Source: Methanolobus vulcani (GTDB lineage: Archaea; Halobacteriota; Methanosarcinia; Methanosarcinales; Methanosarcinaceae). Taken from it: a stretch of DNA of 64,000 nucleotides. The stretch lies in contig NZ_FNCA01000003.1 in assembly GCF_900100715.1 (NCBI RefSeq), forward strand, positions 248,001 through 312,000, written 5' to 3'. Both the position numbers and the translations under genes were made by a program. This document shows positions 600-51,053 of this stretch, piece by piece (the first letter of the stretch is position 1; each line of letters begins with the position of its first letter). The notes under the pieces were generated by a model. It saw only the letters and a program-made list of their open reading frames with translations, was not told where the DNA came from and did no database searches.

Positions 600-1829
600 T
601 TATTCGTATCTCAGTGCATCGACCGGCTTCATCTTTGAAGCATTATATGCCGGGATAATACCAGAGAGCACTCCAATGACAACTGCAATGGAAATACCCA
701 GCACCATCAGATATGGAGCAACGGTCATGCCCATGGATGAACGCATAATGGATATTCCAAGATACGGCATCAACGATGTAAGTACGAGACTCAGCACTAT
801 ACCGAGCACACCTCCTACAAAGCCTACAAGAGCTGAATTGAACAGGAATATCATCATGATGTCCTTGTTCTTGGCACCTATAGCCTTCATTGTGCCAATC
901 TCTTTGGTCTTTTCCAGAACTGATGTGAACATTGTGTTCGCTATTCCCACTGAACCCACTATAAGAGAGACACCAGCTATAGCTCCAAGGAACAATGTCA
1001 GTGATGACATCATCTCACTTGCGGATTCGGCTCTTGACAATGAATCGGATACACTGAAATCTCTATCCTTTTCATTGACGATATGTCTGGATATCATAAG
1101 TTTATCCTCAGTAGCATTGACAACCGATGCCACGTTATCAACATCATTGGCCTTTAACACAATGGTATTGTATACATTTGCCTCTGCATCAGTAATAACG
1201 TCCACTGCCGCATCTATCGGCATGATAATAGCATTATCGTCTTCACCGGAGGCTAATATGCCTATGACTCTGACAGACTTACCGTTGACAGTGATCACAC
1301 GATTCAGTCCTATCTCATTATCATACATAGTATGAGCTACTCTGTAACCTATAACAGCTACGTATTTGTCTGTGGGCTGGAGCAATCTCCCGGACTCCAC
1401 ATCATACGTCACCATATAACTCCAGACCTGAGGATCAACTCCGGTAATAGAGAGACTGGCTGACTTGCCCATAAAATACACATCTTCACTACCGGAGATC
1501 TCCCCATCTATATATGTGACATTCTGAAGCAATTTCAACGTCGTTATATCTTTGTTAGTAAGCGTTGCATCAGAAGAGGAGGAGGAAGACGAGAAATCTC
1601 CCGGGCCTCCAAATGACATAGCCCTTGTATAGCCTGGTGTTACTCTTATAAGCGTAAGGTCCATGTCAGCAAATCTACTTTGCATATCTGCAGCCATACT
1701 GTCACTGAGTGACATTATAGTAACTACTGCTCCAACGCCAATAACGATACCTATTATAGTTAGCCAGCTTCTGACCTTACTGTGTACCAGAATATTTGCA
1801 GCAAGCTTAATATAGGTACTTCGTCTCAT
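600..1829 (-). CDS. MacB/FtsX-type ABC transporter permease
   Basis: 409-aa membrane subunit of an ABC exporter. An N-terminal transmembrane helix at about residues 22-42 follows the basic start. A large extracytoplasmic MacB-like periplasmic-core domain (about 45-270) comes next, including a Ser-rich stretch (SSSSSSS near residue 83). Three C-terminal helices form the FtsX domain (about 278-300, 325-350, 370-395), and the chain ends with the family-typical ASKMKPVDALRYE. Its ATG overlaps the stop of the upstream S-layer-type protein (ATGA), so it is translationally coupled to the adaptor and ATPase genes. MacB/LolE-type systems move lipoproteins or peptides, or transmit force across the envelope, rather than importing solutes. 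The substrate here cannot be read from sequence. Confidence 0.9.
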   Translation of the reverse strand: MRRSTYIKLAANILVHSKVRSWLTIIGIVIGVGAVVTIMSLSDSMAADMQSRFADMDLTLIRVTPGYTRAMSFGGPGDFSSSSSSSDATLTNKDITTLKLLQNVTYIDGEISGSEDVYFMGKSASLSITGVDPQVWSYMVTYDVESGRLLQPTDKYVAVIGYRVAHTMYDNEIGLNRVITVNGKSVRVIGILASGEDDNAIIMPIDAAVDVITDAEANVYNTIVLKANDVDNVASVVNATEDKLMISRHIVNEKDRDFSVSDSLSRAESASEMMSSLTLFLGAIAGVSLIVGSVGIANTMFTSVLEKTKEIGTMKAIGAKNKDIMMIFLFNSALVGFVGGVLGIVLSLVLTSLMPYLGISIMRSSMGMTVAPYLMVLGISIAVVIGVLSGIIPAYNASKMKPVDALRYE

Positions 1830-3229
1830 TGATTGTCCTTCTTCAGTATTTTGTTTTTCAGTTCCCTCAATTGGACACCAAGCGGTTCATAGGTTCCTTC
1901 TTTCATCATTTTTTTCTTTCTATAGTAATATGCTCCTCCTACAACTACAACGACAAGAAGACCATATTCAAGATAAGTGGTGGTACTGGATGAACTGCGA
2001 CTGCTTGGTCCTGCTCCGGAATATGAACTTGCGGTCATAGACCCTCCTGACAGTCCTTCTATCTGAACAGTCTTCTCAACAGAACGCCTCTGACCGGCAG
2101 AATCTGTGTATTCGATAAGAACAAGGAGATCGTTCTGTGACATGCTACTTTGAGCGTATTGTGATTCTGTCACATTTCCTCCGGGCATTCCTGAAGGTCC
2201 TGAAGAGCCCATCTGTGGTGATGAGCTATTTGCAGACATTGATCCTGTCTGTGAGATCGAGAAGGAAGTGATAGTATAGTCACCTTTTTCGAGGTTACCT
2301 ACAATCGTAGAAGTACTTCCAGTAGCTTGAAAATTCTGCTGATCCGGTATTGAGACCTTAACAGAATAAGCCTCATTGTTACCTACGTTTGCAAGAGACA
2401 GAGAGACTTCACCCGCACTGCTCTCTGAGTAACTCAGATCAAAATCCGTAGTGCCTCCTACAAACAGACCAGCTTTAGTATTTATGGTTGTGCTGTTGGA
2501 ATTATAATCTTCGAATTTCAGAGTGATGTCAAGCTGATACAATCCAGGATTTGCATTCACATCCGCCATTACAGAATATGAAACGCTTACCGACTGGTTA
2601 ACACCAAGATAACTTATGTACTTAGTATTGGATGAGTATACAGGCAGGATTACTCCTGTCGATTCATCCCATGAAACAGCCATGTTCTTGAGCGGTGAAG
2701 TACCAGTATTTGTTATCACGAATTCCAGAGGTTCCACGGTTGCAACATCAATGTTAGATTCACTGATAGTAACTATCTGTGCATACTCTTTGCCCTTTAT
2801 ATCAATACTGACTTTTGTCGATACACTTGAACTTGATTCACTGTCGGTGACTAGTACATCCAGATCATAAGTGCCTTCCGAAACATCCGGATCAACCTTT
2901 AGTTTGAATTTAAGAAGTGTTGCATCAGCTGTGTCCTGACGGGCTTCAAGGAATGATATTTTCTGTGAAAGGGACTCGCCTTCTACCTGGGAGAAGGGAT
3001 ATTGCGGATCTATTGAAACCACTACATTTGAGAGATCCTGGTTTCCTACATTCTGAACACTGAAAGTGAGCTCTACTGTTTCACCGGGCCTTGCAGGACT
3101 GGGGCTCTGGGTCATCAGATCCACCTGAACCCCGGAAATGGCGGCGTTCAAATCTGCCGATGCATCTGATATCGGCAAAACCATTGAAAATATTAATAAT
3201 AATAATAATAATAACAGAATTTTTCTCAT
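1826..3229 (-). CDS. COG1361-type S-layer-domain protein of ABC exporter operon
   Basis: About 467 aa, exported and membrane-anchored. It has a signal peptide with a run of eight leucines, several Ig/CARDB-like beta domains with NEW1-like phrases (PGETVELTFSVQNVGNQDLS near residue 50; ITNTGTSPLKNMAVSW near 175), a Ser/Gly/Met-rich segment, one C-terminal transmembrane helix (YLEYGLLVVVVVGGAYYY) and a basic tail. COG1361 proteins often lie between the ATPase and permease of MacB-like systems in Methanosarcinales and probably form the extracellular part of the complex. I chose the ATG at 3229; a GTG at 3238 overlapping the ATPase stop is also possible. Confidence 0.85.
   Translation of the reverse strand: MRKILLLLLLLLIFSMVLPISDASADLNAAISGVQVDLMTQSPSPARPGETVELTFSVQNVGNQDLSNVVVSIDPQYPFSQVEGESLSQKISFLEARQDTADATLLKFKLKVDPDVSEGTYDLDVLVTDSESSSSVSTKVSIDIKGKEYAQIVTISESNIDVATVEPLEFVITNTGTSPLKNMAVSWDESTGVILPVYSSNTKYISYLGVNQSVSVSYSVMADVNANPGLYQLDITLKFEDYNSNSTTINTKAGLFVGGTTDFDLSYSESSAGEVSLSLANVGNNEAYSVKVSIPDQQNFQATGSTSTIVGNLEKGDYTITSFSISQTGSMSANSSSPQMGSSGPSGMPGGNVTESQYAQSSMSQNDLLVLIEYTDSAGQRRSVEKTVQIEGLSGGSMTASSYSGAGPSSRSSSSTTTYLEYGLLVVVVVGGAYYYRKKKMMKEGTYEPLGVQLRELKNKILKKDNQ
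3194..3214 (-). repeat. (TTA)7 microsatellite inside a signal-peptide coding region
   Basis: Seven tandem TTA triplets (TAA on the plus strand) encode leucines in the hydrophobic core of the signal peptide of the S-layer-type protein. Gain or loss of triplets would change signal-peptide length without breaking frame. Confidence 0.85.
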
Positions 3230-3234
3230 CTTTA

Positions 3235-4005
3235 TCACATTGCTTCATTATTTTTTTTCAATATCTCTATTTTATCGACCATTCCGTCTTTTATATGAAC
3301 TACACGATCGGCATATTTCGTAAGATCAGGATCGTGGGTGATCATTATGATAGTTTTACCTTCTTTCTGATGGAGACCACTTAAGAATTCAAGAATATAG
3401 TCACCTGTTGTGCTATCCAGGTTACCTGTTGGCTCATCTGCAAGTATTACCCTTGGATCAACTGCCAGGGATCTTGCAATTGCAACTCTCTGTCTTTGAC
3501 CACCAGACAACTGTGAAGGAAGATTGTATTTTTTATCAGAAAGACCCACTACATCAAGCAATTCCAGTGCTCTCTTCCAGCAAGAATCAGCATCTTCTTC
3601 CTGGAACTCAAGTGGAAGCATCACATTTTCGATAGTATTTAATGTAGGAATAAGGTTGAATGTCTGGAAAATAAATCCAATTAATTGACCTCTGATCTGG
3701 GCAAGTTCAGATTCCTTCATCTTGGAAATGTCCTTGTTGTTGAGCTCAACAACGCCCTTGCTTGGAAGATCAAGGCAACCCAGCAGGTTCATCATTGTAC
3801 TCTTACCGCTTCCACTTGGACCAAGTATGACTACAAATTCACCATGCAGGATCTCCAGATCAATGCCTTTTAATGCGGCAAACTCGACCTCTCCCATTTT
3901 GTAGATCTTCCACACGTCTGTCAAGCGCATGAGAATATCAGGAGTGCCATTTGTGCCATTTTGCGGCTGAATTTCTTGTTCAGTATTATTGAGATTCTCG
4001 TCCAT
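3235..4005 (-). CDS. LolD/MacB-type ABC transporter ATP-binding protein
   Basis: 256-aa cytoplasmic ATPase driving the exporter encoded by the next two genes. Visible motifs are Walker A GPSGSGKST (about residues 62-70), the Q-loop, signature LSGGQRQRVAIARS, Walker B VILADEPTGNLD and the H-loop in MITHDPDL. The LDLPSKGVVELNNKD region and GNLDS are typical of the LolD/MacB subfamily. A start at 4005 is preferred because GAGGT (4011-4015) sits 5 nt upstream; the longer 4017 start would be TTG with no ribosome site. First gene of a three-gene operon (ATPase, S-layer-type protein, permease). Confidence 0.93.
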   Translation of the reverse strand: MDENLNNTEQEIQPQNGTNGTPDILMRLTDVWKIYKMGEVEFAALKGIDLEILHGEFVVILGPSGSGKSTMMNLLGCLDLPSKGVVELNNKDISKMKESELAQIRGQLIGFIFQTFNLIPTLNTIENVMLPLEFQEEDADSCWKRALELLDVVGLSDKKYNLPSQLSGGQRQRVAIARSLAVDPRVILADEPTGNLDSTTGDYILEFLSGLHQKEGKTIIMITHDPDLTKYADRVVHIKDGMVDKIEILKKNNEAM

Positions 4006-4036
4006 GATATACCTCAAATTATTCCCATTTTACAAT

Positions 4037-4066
4037 ATTATATAAACAGATGAATATAAATATTTA
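4037..4066 (-). promoter_or_regulatory. TATA boxes of the ABC exporter operon
   Basis: On the minus strand TTTATATAAT (4046-4037) lies about 32 nt before the ATG at 4005, giving a very short leader. A second AT-rich TATA candidate (TTATAAATATTTATATTC) lies just upstream. Confidence 0.5.
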
Positions 4067-4103
4067 TAACTATGTATACTAAAATTACACTGAAAGTGAA
4101 AAC

Positions 4104-4280
4104 TCATTTGTCATCCACATATCCTGCCGGGGATATTCTGATCAAACGGATCATCTGTTCTGAATTCAGTTTTCTGCACAGAGAAATTACTGCATTTTCA
4201 TGTCCGTTTGCTCCTTTCTGTTCGGCAGGGCCACCAGCAACTTTCTCTTCAAACATAACATGCATATTATTAGTGTTCAT
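4104..4280 (-). CDS. small ORF (58 aa) directly downstream of structured element A
   Basis: ATG at 4280 is preceded by GAGG (4289-4292) at 8-nt spacing, which is good Shine-Dalgarno placement. The product is hydrophilic at the N-terminus (Glu/Gly/Asn-rich, EEKVAGGPAEQKGANGHENA) and ends with a short amphipathic segment (SEQMIRLIRISPAGYVDDK); it has one Cys. No family is recognised. The main support is position: it starts 17 nt after the last hairpin of structured element A, just as a different 50-aa ORF follows element B. It could be a real small protein, or a leader ORF upstream of the ABC exporter operon (which starts about 100 nt after its stop). Confidence 0.4.
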   Translation of the reverse strand: MNTNNMHVMFEEKVAGGPAEQKGANGHENAVISLCRKLNSEQMIRLIRISPAGYVDDK

Positions 4281-4296
4281 AATTCATGCCTCTGTA

Positions 4297-4450
4297 TCGG
4301 ATAAGAGACACCTGGCGGATAGGTAACAGGTGTCCCTTAAACGAGTGGGGGGTTGTTGGTTGTTGGTACATCAGTGGCACCAGGCTGGATGTGGTTGGGG
4401 GTTGGTGCCACCTTAGCTTTGGTGGTTTACCTACCAGCTCACTGCTGGCA
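4297..4450 (-). ncRNA. structured RNA element A (leader or small RNA)
   Basis: Three hairpins are visible. Hairpin 1 pairs 4302-4314 with 4327-4339 (12 of 13 pairs, plus a TCG/CGA base at 4297-4299 and 4342-4344). Hairpin 2 pairs GTGGCACCA (4374-4382) with TGGTGCCAC (4403-4411) around a 20-nt loop. Hairpin 3 pairs CCAGC (4434-4438) with GCTGG (4444-4448). Element B (7191-7334) has the same order of hairpins and an identical hairpin-2 loop, while stem sequences differ and still pair. The minus strand is inferred from the promoter at 4471-4491 and the downstream SD-led ORF. On that strand the conserved loop is C-rich (ACCCCCAACCACAUCCAGCC). Confidence 0.65.
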
Positions 4451-4470
4451 AGCAATCTCCAAATTGGCAG

Positions 4471-4491
4471 TTTTAAATAAAAGCATACTTA
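4471..4491 (-). promoter_or_regulatory. conserved promoter motif, copy A
   Basis: The minus strand reads TAAGTATGCTTTTATTTAAAA: a TATA-like TTTTATTTAAAA with a fixed upstream AAGTATG. It places a start near 4450, at the edge of element A. Near-identical motifs occur at 7353-7374, 9052-9071 and 9615-9632. AAGCTTTAT (4530-4538), about 40 bp further upstream, recurs near copies B and C. Confidence 0.6.
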
Positions 4492-4730
4492 TTTGAAAAA
4501 GACTCACAAATTCCGATGATCAATCAATGAAGCTTTATAATGAAATAAATAATAGATGAATGGTTTATAAGACAGCTAATAACTTATCAAACGTATATTA
4601 GAATATTAATTACTATTTTAGACACTAAAATTCATTATTACACATGAGCCATAGTTTTAGAAGTGAGTAAAAATAAATAGATATCGAAGAGATAATCAGG
4701 GATGAACATTACCTCTGAAAAAAAGAAACA

Positions 4731-5696
4731 TTACTTCTCAGGTTCTACAAGGAAAAGGACATTTCCACGTCCTTTCTTGAATTTCTGGATCTTGCCCCTC
4801 TTCTCAAGATCAAGAAGCATAAGGCTTACTTTTCCTTCTGAATACTTAAGACGTTTACGCATATCTTTCTGTGTCATTCTGCCACCCTGGGATTTCAGGA
4901 TGTCCAGTATTTCCTGAAGGTCAGCAGGGACCGGTTCATCTGAAACTACAGGTTCATTAGCTGAAACGGTTACAGTTTCAGGCTCATCAACAACTGGTTC
5001 TGGCGTAATGATAGTAGATACTTCTTCTACCGGTTCCTCGATCTCTTGATCGGATTCTGCCATTTCAACCGTTTCCTGTACTACATCAACCGGACTTGCG
5101 GTCTCTACCACAGTGATTGCTGCTTTATCCTCTTGCTGAACAGGTTTTTCTTCAACCTTTGCAGAAACTTCCGAAATAGCGTGAGGTACTCCTTCCTTCT
5201 TTACAGCAGCATGCCTTGGAGCCTGAGGCTTTTGTTTTATCTGGAATATAAGAAGGACAAGAACAACAATAACCAGCAGAATGGAACCATAAAGAAGAGA
5301 ATTACTGTTAGTACCTGATGAACTTACCGTAGCAGAACCTGCTGAAATGCTATCATTGGAACTGGAATAGGACGGAACCAGTAACAGATCAAGAACATAA
5401 CTTCCTTCTTCTGAAACTGTTATTACATCCTTTGCATAATAAGTGAGCTGATCATTCTCATAATAACTTGCAGTGATCATGTATGTACCATTTGCCAGTT
5501 CAAAAGAATAGACACCGTATTGAGCCACCATGGACTGTGCCGGTGTTGAGTTAACCTCAATGATAGCATTATCAAGAGGCTCAAATGTGCTCCATTCATA
5601 GGCTACGCCATGTACCGTTGCAATATTGGATGCTGATCCGATACCCGTCAGCGCCAGGATAATTGCAATACAGCAAATATAATATACTGATCTCAT
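4731..5696 (-). CDS. membrane-anchored winged-helix transcriptional regulator (COG2512-like)
   Basis: About 321 aa. Order of parts: signal sequence (1-24); an extracytoplasmic carboxypeptidase-regulatory-like beta domain (about 27-105, TVHGVAYEWSTFEPLDNAII) with an N-glycosylation-type NST; a Ser-rich spacer; one transmembrane helix (about 133-152, LLYGSILLVIVVLVLLIFQI); a long acidic linker rich in Glu/Val/Pro; and a C-terminal winged-helix domain (about 258-321, MTQKDMRKRLKYSEGKVSLM). This layout matches archaeal membrane-associated regulators that sense outside and bind DNA inside. A start at 5696 is preferred over 5747: it gives a clean signal peptide and a 37-nt gap to the upstream gene, like the 34-nt gap in the paralogous copy. 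It likely works with the secreted protein encoded just upstream. Confidence 0.8.
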   Translation of the reverse strand: MRSVYYICCIAIILALTGIGSASNIATVHGVAYEWSTFEPLDNAIIEVNSTPAQSMVAQYGVYSFELANGTYMITASYYENDQLTYYAKDVITVSEEGSYVLDLLLVPSYSSSNDSISAGSATVSSSGTNSNSLLYGSILLVIVVLVLLIFQIKQKPQAPRHAAVKKEGVPHAISEVSAKVEEKPVQQEDKAAITVVETASPVDVVQETVEMAESDQEIEEPVEEVSTIITPEPVVDEPETVTVSANEPVVSDEPVPADLQEILDILKSQGGRMTQKDMRKRLKYSEGKVSLMLLDLEKRGKIQKFKKGRGNVLFLVEPEK

Positions 5697-5733
5697 GTTA
5701 CGCAACCTGTCATTATTTGAACGTTCTCCAATA

Positions 5734-6645
5734 TCAATCTCTCTCAAATATTGGAATCATCCATACATTTTCTTTTCCTTTAGATATATCATTATCAAGA
5801 TGATAAGTACCATTCCCTACAAGTTCAGCTTCACCATTACCGTTTGCTTCCAGATCGATCCTATCTGCCATTATAGCAACCGTATATGACGAACCGGACA
5901 TAGAAACATTACCTGTCACATCAATATATGAGATCATTGCATGAGGCATTATCAGATCATGTGATCCATCTTTATCAGGAGCATACTCCTGTTTATAATC
6001 AGCATCTGTATCAATAACAAGATCACCACTAAAATCAACTACTGAGAATTTGCCATCTGACAGGAAAAAGCTCAGGTCAATGTCACCTGACAGAATGGCA
6101 ACTCCACTTCCTTCAGCACTTAACGTGGTGTTTGTGATCTCAACAGGACCGGTCATATATTCCTTGATCTCATCCAGTATTGGTTTAAGCTGTGAATTTG
6201 CTTTTATGATGCTTTCCCTGGACTTATCCAGATAAGCCTCTTTTTCGGATTCGGAAGAAGTGGTCTGTGCCATTTCAAGATAAGATCTGGATTCAGATAC
6301 AAGGTCAGAATAATCGATTATCATACTTTTAAGATCTGAAACATTTTTGCCTTCATTCTCCAGTTCATTGCTTGCAGTATCAAGTCTTTGAACCATTGAC
6401 TCGGATTTTTCGATATTATCTTCAAGGAAAGTTTCCTCATCGACCATCGAAGAGAAAGAAACCATATGTGTTACCATGAAAACTTCTGATGGAGATGAAG
6501 CCATGCCTAAAGGGGGTATGGAACGATCTCTGTGAACATCCGGTCCTTCATCAGAATGTGAAAACACATCATCAGAATCAGCCAAACCTGAAATAACAAC
6601 CATTAACATAAGAATAATCAATACTATGAGAGGCATTTTTTTCAT
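5734..6645 (-). CDS. exported helical/beta-domain protein, cassette copy 1
   Basis: 303 aa with an N-terminal signal or anchor helix (residues 4-22). An alpha-helical domain (about 65-165) follows, rich in Glu/Ser (ENIEKSESMVQRLDTASNEL). The C-terminal all-beta domain (about 165-300) has repeated Gly/Asn turns (AEGSGVAILSGDIDLSFFLS; EANGNGEAELVGNGTYHLDN). There is no lipobox Cys. It is homologous over its full length to the 300-aa product at 8046-8948. No named family is recognised. Being directly followed by a membrane-anchored regulator, it could be the sensor's exported partner or ligand-binding module; that is inference from position. Confidence 0.8.
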   Translation of the reverse strand: MKKMPLIVLIILMLMVVISGLADSDDVFSHSDEGPDVHRDRSIPPLGMASSPSEVFMVTHMVSFSSMVDEETFLEDNIEKSESMVQRLDTASNELENEGKNVSDLKSMIIDYSDLVSESRSYLEMAQTTSSESEKEAYLDKSRESIIKANSQLKPILDEIKEYMTGPVEITNTTLSAEGSGVAILSGDIDLSFFLSDGKFSVVDFSGDLVIDTDADYKQEYAPDKDGSHDLIMPHAMISYIDVTGNVSMSGSSYTVAIMADRIDLEANGNGEAELVGNGTYHLDNDISKGKENVWMIPIFERD

Positions 6646-6751
6646 TGATCATCACATTCTCAGAAACGATTAACTATTAATAGGTATCTCCGATCTTACA
6701 AAGATAACAGATATCATCTGCCTTAAACATTTTCTCGGTTTTAATTGAATG

Positions 6752-6765
6752 TATTTATATAAATA
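6752..6765. promoter_or_regulatory. palindromic TATA box TATTTATATAAATA
   Basis: A perfect 14-nt palindrome containing TTTATATAAA. On the minus strand it sits about 107 nt before the ATG at 6645. On the plus strand it sits 12 nt before the ATG of a 58-aa ORF (6777), the distance expected for a leaderless start. It could serve either or both. Confidence 0.5.
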
Positions 6766-6776
6766 GTTGTGCGGCA

Positions 6777-6953
6777 ATGTCTGAAGAAACGGATTTAAAG
6801 GAACAACTAAAACAAACCGGAAAAATACTAAAAATATGGCTTTGGCCGATAAAGCAGAAAACGGCCTGTATACCATACAAAATCAAACAAGCAAAGATTA
6901 AGCAAGCAAAGCAAAGAAGAAATAGATCACCACATGAAATCCTTCTTTACTGA
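6777..6953 (+). CDS. possible leaderless small basic protein (58 aa)
   Basis: The ORF begins with SEETDLKEQLKQTGKILKIW and continues Lys/Arg/Gln-rich with two near-copies of KIKQAK and a basic RRNRS near the end, so it is strongly basic. A TATA palindrome ends 11 nt upstream, so transcription would begin at or next to the ATG. No ribosome site is visible, in keeping with leaderless expression. No family is recognised. It runs opposite to the flanking minus-strand genes; a chance ORF in AT-rich DNA is quite possible. Confidence 0.3.
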   Translation: MSEETDLKEQLKQTGKILKIWLWPIKQKTACIPYKIKQAKIKQAKQRRNRSPHEILLY

Positions 6954-7026
6954 GATGTTTTTATGGTGACATCTGGAAGTACCGATATCCTTTAAGGCAG
7001 AATCACATGAGGATGACTCTGAACAT

Positions 7027-7179
7027 TCATTTAGCCTTTCGGAATTTAGCCTTCTTCATAAGACCGGATGCAACATACACTTGATCGGGATAAATGGCCT
7101 GTGCACGGGTTGCCTCCTGAAGCCTTGAGTCGATGAATTGCTTAAAGGTATCTTTCATATCAGACAAAATATTCACCAT
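7027..7179 (-). CDS. small ORF (50 aa) directly downstream of structured element B
   Basis: The ATG at 7179 has AAGGTG (7184-7189) at 4-nt spacing. The predicted product has an amphipathic helix (LSDMKDTFKQFIDSRLQEAT), a central aromatic stretch (AIYPDQVYVASGL) and a basic tail (MKKAKFRKAK). Composition looks protein-like, and there are no rare-codon runs. No family is recognised. The start codon lies 12 nt from the base of element B, mirroring the 58-aa ORF behind element A, although the two peptides share no clear sequence similarity. Roughly 380 nt separate its stop from the next gene (start 6645), so it may be a stand-alone transcript. Confidence 0.5.
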   Translation of the reverse strand: MVNILSDMKDTFKQFIDSRLQEATRAQAIYPDQVYVASGLMKKAKFRKAK

Positions 7180-7190
7180 TTTACACCTTA

Positions 7191-7334
7191 TCGTTTAAGA
7201 GATACCCCGGATAGGGTGGGCACCTCTTAAGCGAGGAGGGGTTGTTGGTACAGTGGTGGCACCTTAGGCTGGATGTGGTTGGGGGTTAGGTGCCACCGAA
7301 GTGGGGTGGTACCCTCCAACATATTAGTTGTCGG
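7191..7334 (-). ncRNA. structured RNA element B (leader or small RNA)
   Basis: Partner of element A. Hairpin 1 pairs 7191-7201 with 7224-7234 (10 of 11) with an inner ACCC/GGGT stem (7204-7207, 7214-7217) and the apical CGGATAGG shared with A. Hairpin 2 pairs GGTGGCACCT (7255-7264) with AGGTGCCACC (7288-7297); compared with A the loop-closing pair is swapped A:T to T:A. Its loop holds the identical GGCTGGATGTGGTTGGGGGT. Hairpin 3 pairs 7316-7321 with 7329-7334, with one pair that is a G-U wobble only on the minus strand. The minus strand is favoured by this wobble, the promoter at 7353-7374 and the downstream SD-led ORF. Confidence 0.65.
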
Positions 7335-7352
7335 GCAAGTTATCAATTGGTA

Positions 7353-7374
7353 ATTTTAAATAAAAGCATACTTA
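7353..7374 (-). promoter_or_regulatory. conserved promoter motif, copy B
   Basis: The minus strand reads TAAGTATGCTTTTATTTAAA, identical over 20 nt to copy A (4471-4491). AAGCTTTAT recurs 36 bp further upstream (7410-7418). It is expected to start transcription near 7330, at hairpin 3 of element B. Confidence 0.6.
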
Positions 7375-7634
7375 CAAGAAAAAGCATTTTTTGATAAATT
7401 ACATTTTTTAAGCTTTATAGCGACTCAAAATCATAAAATAGAACATAATAGTACATTTAATACTTATTAAACCACTCAGAAACTTTTAATCAATAACTAT
7501 TCCCTATTAACATTGATACTTTAAAGTCAATTCCAAAAAAATAATTTATGGGATGCTTTGATATTTAAATAAACATAAGAGAAATAAGGAAGAAAATAAG
7601 GCAAAGATCTGTGTTGAGCATCGAGATTTAAGGA

Positions 7635-7680
7635 TCAGACTTCCATTACGGTAAGGAACAGAATATTTCCGCGGCCTTTT
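7635..7680 (-). pseudogene. remnant of winged-helix C-terminus
   Basis: In a shifted frame this stretch encodes FIKGRGNILFLTVMEV then a TGA stop. It corresponds to FKKGRGNVLFLVEPEK at the very end of the intact regulator at 4731-5696. It touches the stop of the 110-aa paralog, so the deletion junction is visible at about 7680. Confidence 0.75.
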
Positions 7681-8011
7681 ATGAAGGAACCAGAAGGAGA
7701 TCTACGACATAATTTCCTTCATCCATGATAGTTATAACTTCCTCATCATAACACGTGAGATCCCCATTTACATAATAACTTGAAGCTATGCGATAATTCC
7801 CTTCAGGAAGCTCAAAAGAATACATTCCATATTTTGCAACCATTGATTGCCTGGGAGTGGAATTCACCTCAATTATAACATTATCAAGTGGAGCAAGAGT
7901 ACTCCAGTCATAAACCACACCATGAACAGTCGCACTGTCCTCTGCAGCAACTACTGTGGATAAAAGAAGAAGGAGGATGGTGATGCAACCTGCACAGGAT
8001 GTAATTTTCAT
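7679..8011 (-). CDS. truncated paralog of the membrane-anchored regulator (sensor domain only)
   Basis: 110 aa with a signal peptide (1-23) and the extracytoplasmic beta domain (TVHGVVYDWSTLAPLDNVII, then the sensor strand pattern to LLLVPS). It is strongly similar to residues 1-105 of the regulator at 4731-5696. The transmembrane helix, acidic linker and most of the DNA-binding domain are gone: after VPS the frame hits TAA, and the last 16 codons of the winged helix remain out of frame next to it. The product would be a free exported sensor domain, possibly a decoy or modulator, or simply a decaying gene. It follows its secreted partner gene by 34 nt. Confidence 0.75.
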   Translation of the reverse strand: MKITSCAGCITILLLLLSTVVAAEDSATVHGVVYDWSTLAPLDNVIIEVNSTPRQSMVAKYGMYSFELPEGNYRIASSYYVNGDLTCYDEEVITIMDEGNYVVDLLLVPS

Positions 8012-8045: not shown

Positions 8046-8948
8046 TCATAAGGTTTCAAATATAGGTGCTAACCAGACTCCTTCCCTGACTGAACCGGAG
8101 TTATCCAGATAATAAGTTCCATTGCCATAGAGCTGGACTTCTCCAAAGCCAGTTGCATGGAGAGTTGTATTATCACCCATGACAGCAATTGTCATCCCTG
8201 AACCTGACATTCTCACATTACCCTGAACGTCCAGGTATGAGACCATATGATGTGGATTCACACTCCCGGAAGTGGACACCGCAGATTCAGCTACTACATT
8301 GGAACTTAATAATTCATCAGAATTTATAGACATGTCTCCCTCAAAGTCCACTACAGAGAATTTTCCTGAAGACATACTGAGATTGACATCCAGATCTCCA
8401 GAGAGAATTATTACTCCACTTCCCTTTGCATCAAGACTGTCATTCCCGGTTATCTCTACAGGTCCTGGCATATAGTTATGCATGGCCACGAATATCCTTT
8501 TCAGTAAGACATCTGAATGGACCATCTTGTCTTTGGACAATGAAACATATTTCTGCTCATCTGAAATTGAATCTGCACTGTTTGCCTTTTCAAGATATGA
8601 ACCCGCATCTGAAACAAGTGATGAATAATCCCTGACCATTTGTTTAAGGTCGCTTACATCGTTTCCTTCACTGGCCAGACGATCAATGGAATCTTCAAGA
8701 CGAACTATCATCTCATCGGATTTCTGTATGTTATCTGTCAGAAAGTCCTTTTCATCCTGTGGCTTTACATTTTCTTCTGAAACAGATGAGGGAACCTCAC
8801 CATATAGTTCTTTATTGATATATTCCGGCTGACTGGAAGACATTTTAGAATGGTCTCCGTCAACAGGATACCTGCCATTATCTGACAGACCTGATATTAA
8901 TACCATCAATATGAGAATTCCCAGTGTTATAAGTGGTAACTTCTTCAT
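8046..8948 (-). CDS. exported helical/beta-domain protein, cassette copy 2
   Basis: 300 aa and a full-length paralog of the 5734-6645 product: signal helix (LPLITLGILILMVLISGL), helical domain (NIQKSDEMIVRLEDSIDRLA, about 70-165) and beta domain (AKGSGVIILSGDLDVNLSMS; ATGFGEVQLYGNGTYYLDNS). A strong ribosome site AGGAGGTGATT precedes ATG 8948. The promoter motif at 9052-9071 gives a leader of about 80 nt. First gene of the second cassette, followed by the truncated regulator. Function unknown; export is predicted from the signal sequence. Confidence 0.82.
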   Translation of the reverse strand: MKKLPLITLGILILMVLISGLSDNGRYPVDGDHSKMSSSQPEYINKELYGEVPSSVSEENVKPQDEKDFLTDNIQKSDEMIVRLEDSIDRLASEGNDVSDLKQMVRDYSSLVSDAGSYLEKANSADSISDEQKYVSLSKDKMVHSDVLLKRIFVAMHNYMPGPVEITGNDSLDAKGSGVIILSGDLDVNLSMSSGKFSVVDFEGDMSINSDELLSSNVVAESAVSTSGSVNPHHMVSYLDVQGNVRMSGSGMTIAVMGDNTTLHATGFGEVQLYGNGTYYLDNSGSVREGVWLAPIFETL

Positions 8949-9051: not shown

Positions 9052-9071
9052 TTTAAATATAAACATACTTA
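9052..9071 (-). promoter_or_regulatory. conserved promoter motif, copy C
   Basis: The minus strand reads TAAGTATGTTTATATTTAAA, upstream of the secreted protein gene starting at 8948. It differs from copies A/B by C-to-T after AAGTATG and one T/A in the TATA core. AAGCTTTAT lies at 9120-9128. Confidence 0.6.
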
Positions 9072-9614
9072 AGCGGAAAGAGATTTTTAGAAAAATAATA
9101 AGAGATAAAAAGAGAGCTTAAGCTTTATGAAGCTTTTTTGAAAATAAAAAATGATTTTGAAACTATATTAAGAGATAAAAGTTATAAATAACTACTAATA
9201 TACATCTATTTTGGATTCAAACTCATTTTAACTATGTTTTAAAATTGCGTAATACAATGATTTTTGATGACATGTTAGAAAAAATCCTACTTTGGAATTA
9301 TGGAAGAAATGACTTCAACTTGACCCTGACACAACACAGATAAACCCTACATTTAAAAAAATCATTGCAGCGCATCCTATTCATTGAGAGATATCACATA
9401 TGCCTAACGGGAAAATCGGCTAAATACGAAACCTCTGTTCTTTTGGAGTGGAATTCTATCAAATAGAAACTTCCTGTTAAACACCGGACATACCTTCAAT
9501 AGAAGAAATCAACCATACTCATTAATTTTAAGTGTTCAAAGGTTCCTTTTGACAATAAACCTTTATAGAAGTTTTATTTTTTGATTTAAAGCTCATATTG
9601 AACTTCTTTTACGA

Positions 9615-9632
9615 AAGTATGCTTATATTTAA
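9615..9632 (+). promoter_or_regulatory. conserved promoter motif, copy D
   Basis: The plus strand reads AAGTATGCTTATATTTAA, about 84 nt before the ATG at 9716, so the leader is about 60 nt. It is the only copy on the plus strand and again precedes a secreted-protein gene. Confidence 0.6.
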
Positions 9633-9715: not shown

Positions 9716-10522
9716 ATGAAACACAGAATACTGAAATTACTGGCCTGTATTTCATTGGCATCAATGGTGTTAAGTGTTGTGACACCAGGCGCCTTTGCTG
9801 ATGAAACAGGAACAGCAAACGATACCAAGGAGTTCGATGATCATAGGATGATGAATGCTCCAGACGGGAACTTCAGCATCAATAATTCAATCATGGAAGC
9901 ACCTGTGTTTGACAGTGAGGAAGAAGAGATGAACTTCCTTGTAGAAAGAACAAATGAATCAATCAGCAGGAAGATAGAAATGCTTCAGGAAATGCTCTAT
10001 AACATCGATGAAATTGATGATGAGAACATAACAGCAGATTCTATTCAAGAGCAGATTACAGAACTGCAGGGATTGCTTGCAGACGTTGAGAGTGCAACAA
10101 CACTGGACGAACTCAAGGGGATTCTGGAAACATCCAGAGAATCTATGATGATGGAGAATCCGGTAAAGGGTGAAAGACCGGAAATGGAAAAGATAGTATT
10201 CGATTCCGATGAGGAAGAAATGGCTTTCCTTGTAGAGAGAGAAACAGAACACATCACCAAAAGAATAGAAATGCTCAACGAGAAGATGGATAATATCGAC
10301 GAGATGAACGACGAAAACGTCACAGAGGAATTTATCAACGAAGAGATTACCGGGCTTGAAGATCTGCTTTCAGAGATCCAGGGTGCAACAACTCTTGATG
10401 AGCTCAAGACAATCCTGGAAGGGTATAGAGCAAACAACCCTCAACCACACGGACATGGAAGAGAACATGGACCAATGGGCCCAGCTCCTGAAATTGAAGA
10501 AGAGATAACCCAGGAAGAGTGA
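9716..10522 (+). CDS. secreted acidic coiled-coil protein with internal duplication
   Basis: 268 aa. Signal peptide (1-29, cleavage after GAFA). Two related repeats of about 78 residues with a 97-residue period: 64-142 starts FDSEEEEMNFLVERTNES and 161-237 starts FDSDEEEMAFLVERETEH. Both continue into heptad-rich helices and a closing ATTLDELK-ILE motif. The tail is His/Gly/Pro-rich (PQPHGHGREHGPMGPAP) and could bind metal. AAGGAGATAG is a good ribosome site and promoter copy D lies upstream. No named family is recognised. The next gene (10612) encodes a related single-repeat protein, so the pair probably arose by duplication and may be co-transcribed. Confidence 0.8.
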   Translation: MKHRILKLLACISLASMVLSVVTPGAFADETGTANDTKEFDDHRMMNAPDGNFSINNSIMEAPVFDSEEEEMNFLVERTNESISRKIEMLQEMLYNIDEIDDENITADSIQEQITELQGLLADVESATTLDELKGILETSRESMMMENPVKGERPEMEKIVFDSDEEEMAFLVERETEHITKRIEMLNEKMDNIDEMNDENVTEEFINEEITGLEDLLSEIQGATTLDELKTILEGYRANNPQPHGHGREHGPMGPAPEIEEEITQEE

Positions 10523-10560
10523 GATCAAAAGGAATGGTCTGTAAAATGATCACTACCGCT

Positions 10561-10586
10561 ATGAGATAGGATTATTCCTATCTCAT
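10561..10586 (+). terminator. 11-bp perfect hairpin between two secreted-protein genes
   Basis: ATGAGATAGGA and TCCTATCTCAT pair perfectly around a TTAT loop. It lies 38 nt after the stop of the 268-aa protein and 25 nt before the next ATG. It could terminate, attenuate or protect an mRNA end; there is no long T-tract. Confidence 0.5.
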
Positions 10587-10611
10587 AAATCCAAATTAAA
10601 GGAGTTTTAAC

Positions 10612-11214
10612 ATGAGAAGAAAGTTAACTTTGCTTTACTAATGATAGTGTTCAGCACCGCAATACCGGGAGTTTATGCACTGGAAGACAACGGTAGCATG
10701 GAAATGCCACAAATGGATGCTGCACAGATGAAAGAAATGACACTTGGAATGATAGAGAACAATATAGATGCACTTACCACCCTCCAGTCTGAAACAGAAG
10801 ATGAAGATACACTACAATCAATAGAAAGCCTTCTTGAACAGATGGAATCACAAAAAACAGAACTAGAAGGCACAGACGATAAAGATACTGTTGAGGACAT
10901 AATGGGAGAGCTCAGAACATTAATGGAAGAAGCACCAGAACAAGTACGTGAGTCACTTATGCAGAATGGCCCCGGAGGAGACCGAGGACTGGATGGAGAA
11001 GGCATGATGAATGGCAATGGTGCAGGCACCTGAAGGAGCAACAGGCAGTGGATTCCCGGGAAATGGAAGTATGGGTGATGGAGCTCAGATGGGAAGACCG
11101 GACGAAAGAACAACTGACAGCGATTCCAGCAGTTCAGAAGCTATCACAAATTCTATTGAAGAGAGTACAGGATTTCTCAGCGGTCTTATCAACATGATCA
11201 AGGGACTCTTGTAA
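10612..11214 (+). pseudogene. secreted coiled-coil protein with two compensating frame breaks
   Basis: ATG 10612 follows AAAGGAG and starts MRRKLTLLY before a TAA. Adding one T at the TTT run 10634-10636 would give a normal signal peptide (MRRKLTLLLLMIVFSTAIPG) running into the long middle frame (10641-11033). That middle part is a coiled coil (LQSIESLLEQMESQKTELEG) akin to the repeats of the preceding gene. It meets TGA at 11031. Removing one base near 11025 joins it to a Gly/Ser-rich tail and a final hydrophobic segment (FLSGLINMIKGLL). Start and tail are in one frame, with the middle shifted. Either two sequencing errors or a damaged gene. The internal ATG 10641 could still make a shorter product without a basic N-region. 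Confidence 0.6.
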
Positions 11215-50674: not shown

Positions 50675-50749
50675 AGCGGGGTGGGGTAGCCAGGAGATCC
50701 CGACGGGCTCATAACCCGTAGACCGATAGTTCGAATCTATCCCCCGCTA
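50675..50749 (+). tRNA. initiator tRNA-Met(CAT), copy 1
   Basis: 75 nt. Acceptor arms AGCGGGG/CCCCGCT with an A1-T72 pair; anticodon stem ACGGG/CCCGT with three G:C pairs next to the CTCATAA loop. Both are marks of archaeal initiator tRNA. No CCA encoded. Confidence 0.95.
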
Positions 50750-50880
50750 CTTTTCTAACATAATTTTGATCTAACCATCAATTAGTGTGTTAGAGCCGTG
50801 TTCTGGAAATATACATATATAGTATGCAGACATAGAAGGATTTACTTTACTAATAAAACTTTAAAAACTTCAATCCCTGA

Positions 50881-50955
50881 AGCGGGGTGGGGTAGCCAGG
50901 AGATCCCGACGGGCTCATAACCCGTAGACCGATAGTTCGAATCTATCCCCCGCTA
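50881..50955 (+). tRNA. initiator tRNA-Met(CAT), copy 2
   Basis: Identical in all 75 positions to copy 1, starting 206 nt downstream. Flanking DNA is not conserved beyond a few bases. Confidence 0.95.
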
Positions 50956-51053
50956 CTAACTCTCTTTTCTAAATATCATTTTATCATTTCCGGAAACTGA
51001 GTTGTAACTCTTTTATATCATTTACTCATTCCAGTAAGTTCAGGATATTAAAA

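Follow-up and report, generated by a model that had tools for sequence, protein, structure and literature searches.

Structured cis-regulatory leaders, such as riboswitches and ribosomal-protein leaders, consist of covarying hairpins that lie between the promoter and the first open reading frame (ORF) of homologous operons, and a leader of the crcB riboswitch type occurs in archaea too (PMC2864571). In the 64,000-nucleotide (nt) stretch of the Methanolobus vulcani genome analyzed here (contig NZ_FNCA01000003.1, positions 248,001 to 312,000; hereafter the window), two copies of a three-hairpin element, A and B, have a likewise arranged set of covarying hairpins on the minus strand. The element is very probably the cis-acting 5′ leader of an mRNA for a small protein and, in copy A, for the exporter operon downstream. 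It differs from the structured leaders above in having no Rfam match and a narrow range (Methanosarcinaceae), and in that unrelated genes share just the promoter, the 5′ hairpin and ACC motifs. Known examples of structured cis-regulatory leaders are few in archaea and fewer still in methanogens.

TRAP-type leaders, as in the Bacillus trp operon, carry arrays of GAG/UAG triplets in open RNA that are read by a ring-shaped binder. The leader described here resembles them in its repeated trinucleotides in open RNA, which would suit a ring-shaped binder, although the analogy is one of working only; it differs in its ACC triplets, their irregular spacing and its archaeal host. We know of no such TRAP-like logic, nor of any GcvB-like logic, described in archaea. 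The GcvB small RNA (sRNA) regulon comprises C/A-rich elements in ABC transporter mRNAs, according to the part of PMC11456600 that cites Sharma 2007, and C/A-rich elements in 5′ untranslated regions (UTRs) of transporter mRNAs are likewise found here. Unlike in the GcvB regulon, the targets here are archaeal exporters, and complement searches found no G/U-rich partner sRNA. In Methanolobus psychrophilus, of the same genus, large 5′ UTRs are common: 51% of mRNAs have one longer than 50 nt and 24% one longer than 150 nt, and for some of these UTRs a masking of ribosome sites is predicted; the main text of that study does not describe this element or operon (PMC5378194).

Results

Architecture of the two elements

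Each copy reads in the same order on the minus strand: promoter TAAGTATGCTTTTATTTAAAA, a gap of ~15-20 nt, hairpin P1, ACCACC, hairpin P2 with a C/A-rich loop (L2), a linker GUACCAACAACC(AACAACC), hairpin P3 and a small ORF. An earlier note on this DNA had described three hairpins shared in order, an identical 20-nt loop and a swapped loop-closing pair, and both the sequences and the coordinates hold; copy A has A:T as the P2 pair adjoining the loop, and copy B has T:A. The two other hairpins are, as reported, changed yet still paired in A and B: P3 (hairpin 1 of the note) keeps a TCG/CGA foot and an apical GGATAGG (CCTATCC on the RNA strand) between altered stems, and P1 (its hairpin 3) has arms that differ between the copies with pairing kept. 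The similarity of A and B runs past the hairpins into the promoter, and the element therefore extends to ~4491 in A and ~7374 in B. Transcription would start at the base of P1, ~27 nt downstream of the TATA box, in agreement with the minus strand proposed earlier and with predicted starts near 4456 and 7339. The features are as follows.

4297..4456, minus strand: core of leader RNA A (P1-ACCACC-P2-ACC array-P3); covariance model (CM) R1, 139 bits, with A in the R1 training set; 29-sequence covariation
4429..4453, minus strand: P1 of A, the 5′-terminal hairpin; changes on both sides in 6/10 pairs, 85% of cells paired
4421..4427, minus strand: ACCACC motif after P1 of A; ACCACC in 25/29 leaders and near variants in the others, without covariation with GGUGG
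4373..4412, minus strand: P2 of A with its C/A-rich loop (hairpin 2 of the earlier note); both-side changes in 4/9 pairs, 98.9% paired
4383..4402, minus strand: 20-nt L2 loop ACCCCCAACCACATCCAGCC of A, the same letters as in B; core CCAACCACATCC near-invariant in A/B types but not in the single-copy lineage, where it has diverged
4351..4369, minus strand: ACC-repeat linker GTACCAACAACCAACAACC of A; almost every leader has TACCA or a close variant, ACC excess
4297..4344, minus strand: P3 of A, a long hairpin TCG-UAAG...CUUA-CGA; both-side changes in 7/16 pairs, 98.7% paired
4471..4491, minus strand: promoter A, TAAGTATGCTTTTATTTAAAA, TATA-like with a fixed upstream flank TAAGTATG; exact in A and B
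7191..7339, minus strand: core of leader RNA B; CM R1, 143 bits, with B in the R1 training set
7311..7336, minus strand: P1 of B; alignment and covariation
7255..7297, minus strand: P2 of B with its L2 loop at 7267-7286; alignment and covariation
7240..7251, minus strand: ACC linker GTACCAACAACC of B; alignment
7191..7234, minus strand: P3 of B; alignment and covariation
7354..7374, minus strand: promoter B, identical to promoter A

The fold is conserved among homologous leaders

We aligned 29 homologous leaders and scored the 35 pairs of P1, P2 and P3. Standard pairs occupied 94.8% of cells, compared with 37-46% when the partner was slid by 1-3 columns, percentages that lean towards the given structure because it was partly drawn from the same sequences. 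Changes on both sides were present in 17 of the 35 pairs, a value as high as which was not seen in any shuffle (0/500), and 70 double-change cells were observed against 23.6 in shuffles. A null that re-paired columns of like consensus type while keeping the phylogeny reached none of the three observed values (0/2000), so both-side changes exceed what relatedness alone would give. Under a stricter, R-scape-like branch null, 2 pairs were individually significant at E<0.05, and 4 were so at the looser limit of E<0.1; the covariation support is therefore strong in aggregate and modest per pair. RNAalifold recovered P2, P3 and the base of P1 unprompted. The covariance model found matches outside its training set in genomes G056, G044 and G050 and in two tandem copies in G081 (E 2e-12 to 4e-7), as well as in G068 (E 2e-4); these matches are independent of the sequences from which the structure was drawn. 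The claim of a functional RNA with pair-preserving homologues in other genomes is borne out: comparative sequence analysis supports a structured, functional RNA encoded on the minus strand. L2 is nearly invariant in the A/B types and has diverged in the single-copy lineage.

The leader precedes a small ORF and an exporter operon

The genes that follow the two leaders are given below.

4104..4280, minus strand: small ORF A, 58 amino acids (aa), motif KLxxEQMxRLxxISP; conserved in homologues
3235..4017, minus strand: ABC ATPase, the first large gene after leader A (PF00005, E 8.7e-31); its orthologue follows the leader in other genera
1826..3238, minus strand: secreted protein, presumably of COG1361 type (NPCBM_assoc, E 1.7e-6); gene order same at other loci
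600..1829, minus strand: MacB-like permease (PF12704, E 1e-30; PF02687, E 9.7e-22)
7027..7179, minus strand: small ORF B, 50 aa, truncated relative to near orthologues (~75-86 aa, ending DFxW)

Median dN/dS values for the small ORF were 0.43 among A types, 0.15 among single-copy types and 0.45 among three B types. KLxxEQMxRLxxIS is common to most A and single-copy small proteins, and the DFxW ending occurs in most B-type and single-copy ones. By these measures the small ORF is under purifying selection and looks translated, and the RNA is therefore best seen as its leader. The position between the promoter and the small ORF is fixed in 18 genomes, that is, the leader keeps its place ahead of homologous downstream genes. 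One genome, G054, yielded no small ORF, its leader continuing into the ABC gene.

An old tandem duplication produced copies A and B

A BLAST search with leader A of 112 genomes of the family gave matches in 21, some over the promoter only. Both A and B were present in 13 genomes, including that of the window, in tandem where on one contig, and a single diverged copy was present in five (G040, G044, G047, G050 and G056). Covariance-model matches with the same neighborhood occurred in 19 Methanolobus genomes, with further matches in two other genera. Where the contig shows it, the single-copy gene order is 300 aa-HTH-leader-small ORF-ABC ATPase-COG1361-type protein-permease, from which it follows that the A/B pair goes back to a tandem duplication of [leader-small ORF-300 aa-HTH]; read in this way, the duplication is old and covers the whole unit. 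The remaining members of that unit in the window are listed here.

5734..6645, minus strand: 300-aa protein with a signal-peptide-like start; paralogue of 8046-8948, order kept in relatives
4731..5747, minus strand: HTH membrane protein (DUF7343 winged helix), a candidate regulator (PF24034, E 4.4e-17)

The duplication in itself does not support an independent RNA gene, as the copies are parts of a larger duplicated unit. The interpretation given in the earlier note is borne out in part: a structured RNA is supported, a loop acting in trans has no support, and the RNA is better explained as a 5′ leader of the small ORF and the ABC exporter operon.

The HTH paralogues show an unequal fate after the tandem duplication: all that remains of the upstream one (7679-8011, minus strand) is its N-terminal part, which is carboxypeptidase-regulatory-like, whereas the DUF7343 winged helix present at 4731-5747 has been lost from it. 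In G081, of another genus, two leader copies lie 2.6 kb apart (positions 7848-8000 and 10486-10638 of locus L101, minus strand) near DUF4405-like and Lcl_C-domain genes, and each is followed by an identical 11-codon frame, MKIMGCTYYSK.

Promoter and ACC motifs recur before unlinked genes

In the genome of the window, sites within two mismatches of TAAGTATGCTTTTATTT number four, all inside one 5.2-kb cluster. Besides promoters A and B, the related sites are these.

9055..9071, minus strand: promoter site before the 300-aa gene 8046-8948; 2 mismatches
9614..9630, plus strand: promoter site before a divergent secreted coiled-coil gene at 9716; 2 mismatches

Across the family, the pattern AAGTATNYTTWTATT-N35-65-ACCAYC was found in 33 of 112 genomes from five genera, and the reversed pattern in 0. 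In genera g7, g10 and g11, the promoter followed by a 5′ hairpin and UACCACC precedes orthologous ABC ATPase/COG1361-type genes; in g11, a short ORF lies between the leader and the ABC gene. The promoter with UACCACC also precedes genes for small secreted proteins with DxDxDG repeats (calcium-binding-like) in g7 and g10 (L106, L107, L116). Furthermore, promoter and leader precede a DUF4405 membrane protein gene on contig C9 of the genome of the window (L105, promoter near record position 177255) and in many other Methanolobus. These DUF4405 leaders, which gave no Rfam match, carry an extended ACC array in the loop of an AAGAUCRCAUGU/ACAUGYGAUCUU stem, in which G-C/A-U exchange between genomes keeps the pairing. 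In the g11 leaders (L133-L135), there is a P3-like hairpin with the 3′ arm GGAUGCCUCC and a G-rich GGAGG-like stretch close behind, a layout like that of the alternative pairing in the Methanolobus genomes with a single copy.

ACCAC/ACCAA motifs occurred 53 times in 18 representative leaders, a count of which at most ten are explained by the choice of 10 of the 18 leaders by a pattern holding one such motif or one near it; 300 dinucleotide shuffles gave 15.3±3.5 (maximum 26), an excess of ~3.5-fold. Unpaired segments are G-poor, G making up 1-16% of unpaired bases.

Catalogue and literature searches

Rfam 15 at gathering thresholds returned tRNAs only across the whole window, an E-value scan of 4050-7600 returned nothing beyond chance-level matches, and six related loci returned one tRNA and no other match, in line with the earlier statement that no known family is involved. 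A search of 238 genomes of the class gave no leader match outside the family. In the main-text literature, taken without supplements, we found no account of this leader or of DUF7343; start sites may already be in print. The leader thus matches no catalogued RNA family, its stems stay paired through changes of sequence and its repeated ACC motifs recur in leaders of other cell-surface genes; it is therefore probably a control switch of an uncharted kind.

Discussion

The explanation that we consider best overall, and reasonably likely, is a structured 5′ leader whose ACC segments would be shown to a trans factor shared by these mRNAs. All the leaders have the promoter, the 5′ hairpin and open ACC motifs in common, and from this we infer a shared ACC-reading factor. 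The hairpins would present the ACC segments to this one factor, which would govern all these mRNAs jointly, at the level of translation or of stability, and the special promoter would control the same regulon at its first level, that of transcription. Such a factor would most plausibly be a multimeric RNA-binding protein reading ACC triplets, and less plausibly a G/U-rich sRNA. That a shared factor acts on the ACC motifs at all is a fairly tentative proposal. More tentative again is an archaeal post-transcriptional regulon in which one trans factor reads hairpin-displayed ACC arrays in unlinked envelope and exporter mRNAs that share a dedicated promoter, and the specific assignment of the factor as a protein rather than an sRNA is doubtful.

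Several observations weigh against this explanation. The start site and the transcript are themselves predictions. ACC counts are low in the g7, g10 and g11 leaders and mostly not significant singly, and the ACC bias might be a side effect of selection for linkers free of structure and of G. P2 and P3 of the g7 and g10 leaders are not the same hairpins; because the downstream elements differ, the part shared across genera is small (promoter, 5′ hairpin and UACCACC). The searches, which did not extend to TRAP homologues, yielded no candidate for the binding protein or the sRNA.

A passive 5′ stability element, in which hairpins guard the mRNA end, G-poor linkers keep the leader open and the motif has no specific partner, would account for the hairpin at the predicted 5′ end in other genera too, for downstream hairpins that vary freely and for G-poor unpaired segments. 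We consider it unlikely, as the near-invariant ACCACC, GUACCAAC and L2 in A/B types, together with an ACC excess beyond dinucleotide content, exceed what openness needs. A riboswitch, with L2 as part of the pocket for a small ligand and a change in access to the ribosome site of the small ORF, is improbable: the near-invariance of L2 in A/B types speaks for it, but L2 is a single-stranded hairpin loop and no multi-helix pocket, its sequence has diverged where there is one copy, and related leaders sit before unrelated envelope genes. Also in its favor, the 3′ arm of the single-copy P3 can instead form an 11-pair hairpin over the Shine-Dalgarno sequence, with energies from -14.5 to -17.4 kcal/mol in three genomes and weaker values in two more (duplex z between about -1.4 and -3.9), whereas masking is at chance level in the A and B types; ACCACC and GGUGG do not covary, and two exclusive structures backed by conservation were not found for this leader.

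An sRNA cut from the leader, trans-acting or dual-function, would pair its C-rich, open loop with G-rich mRNA sites, and dual-function sRNAs with small ORFs have been proposed in Methanosarcina mazei (PMC11456600). We regard this as quite improbable, given that the leaders continue into a conserved small ORF or ABC gene, that no U-run follows P3 of A, that L2 conservation is confined to A/B types and that complements of the loop core are at genome background outside the elements. Genome-wide, complements of the 12-nt core with at most one mismatch gave 12 matches, against 12 in the control, and perfect ones occur at the two elements only, which disfavors the pairing with ribosome sites in trans put forward in the earlier note. 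As trans targets, complements of L2 or of GUACCAACMACC were no more frequent than in the controls; one extra exact match among them, on contig C8, lies in apparent coding sequence. A DNA-level feature copied by duplication, either a mobile-element end or protein-binding palindromes, would explain inverted repeats in two copies and is hardly credible in view of a placement, constant across 18 genomes, between the promoter and the small ORF, the GU-type and compensatory changes, the conserved unpaired loops and the absence of element genes at the locus.

Among the mechanisms tried and rejected, ACCACC:GGUGG pairing as a switch is not supported, the two motifs showing no covariation across the 29 leaders. 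General Shine-Dalgarno masking by the 3′ arm of P3 is rejected as well; being strong only in the single-copy lineage, it may be a feature added there and not a common mechanism. Transcription attenuation is not supported either, there being no run of at least four U directly after P3 of A.

The leader has a covariation-backed model and a defined promoter, its small protein is conserved and its target operon fixed, and it is therefore directly testable in cultured Methanolobus species. If one factor does read the ACC motifs, a regulon would be opened and, probably, a new archaeal RNA-binding regulator.

Elsewhere in the window, two identical tRNA-Met (CAT) genes lie ~130 nt apart on the plus strand (50675-50750 and 50881-50956).

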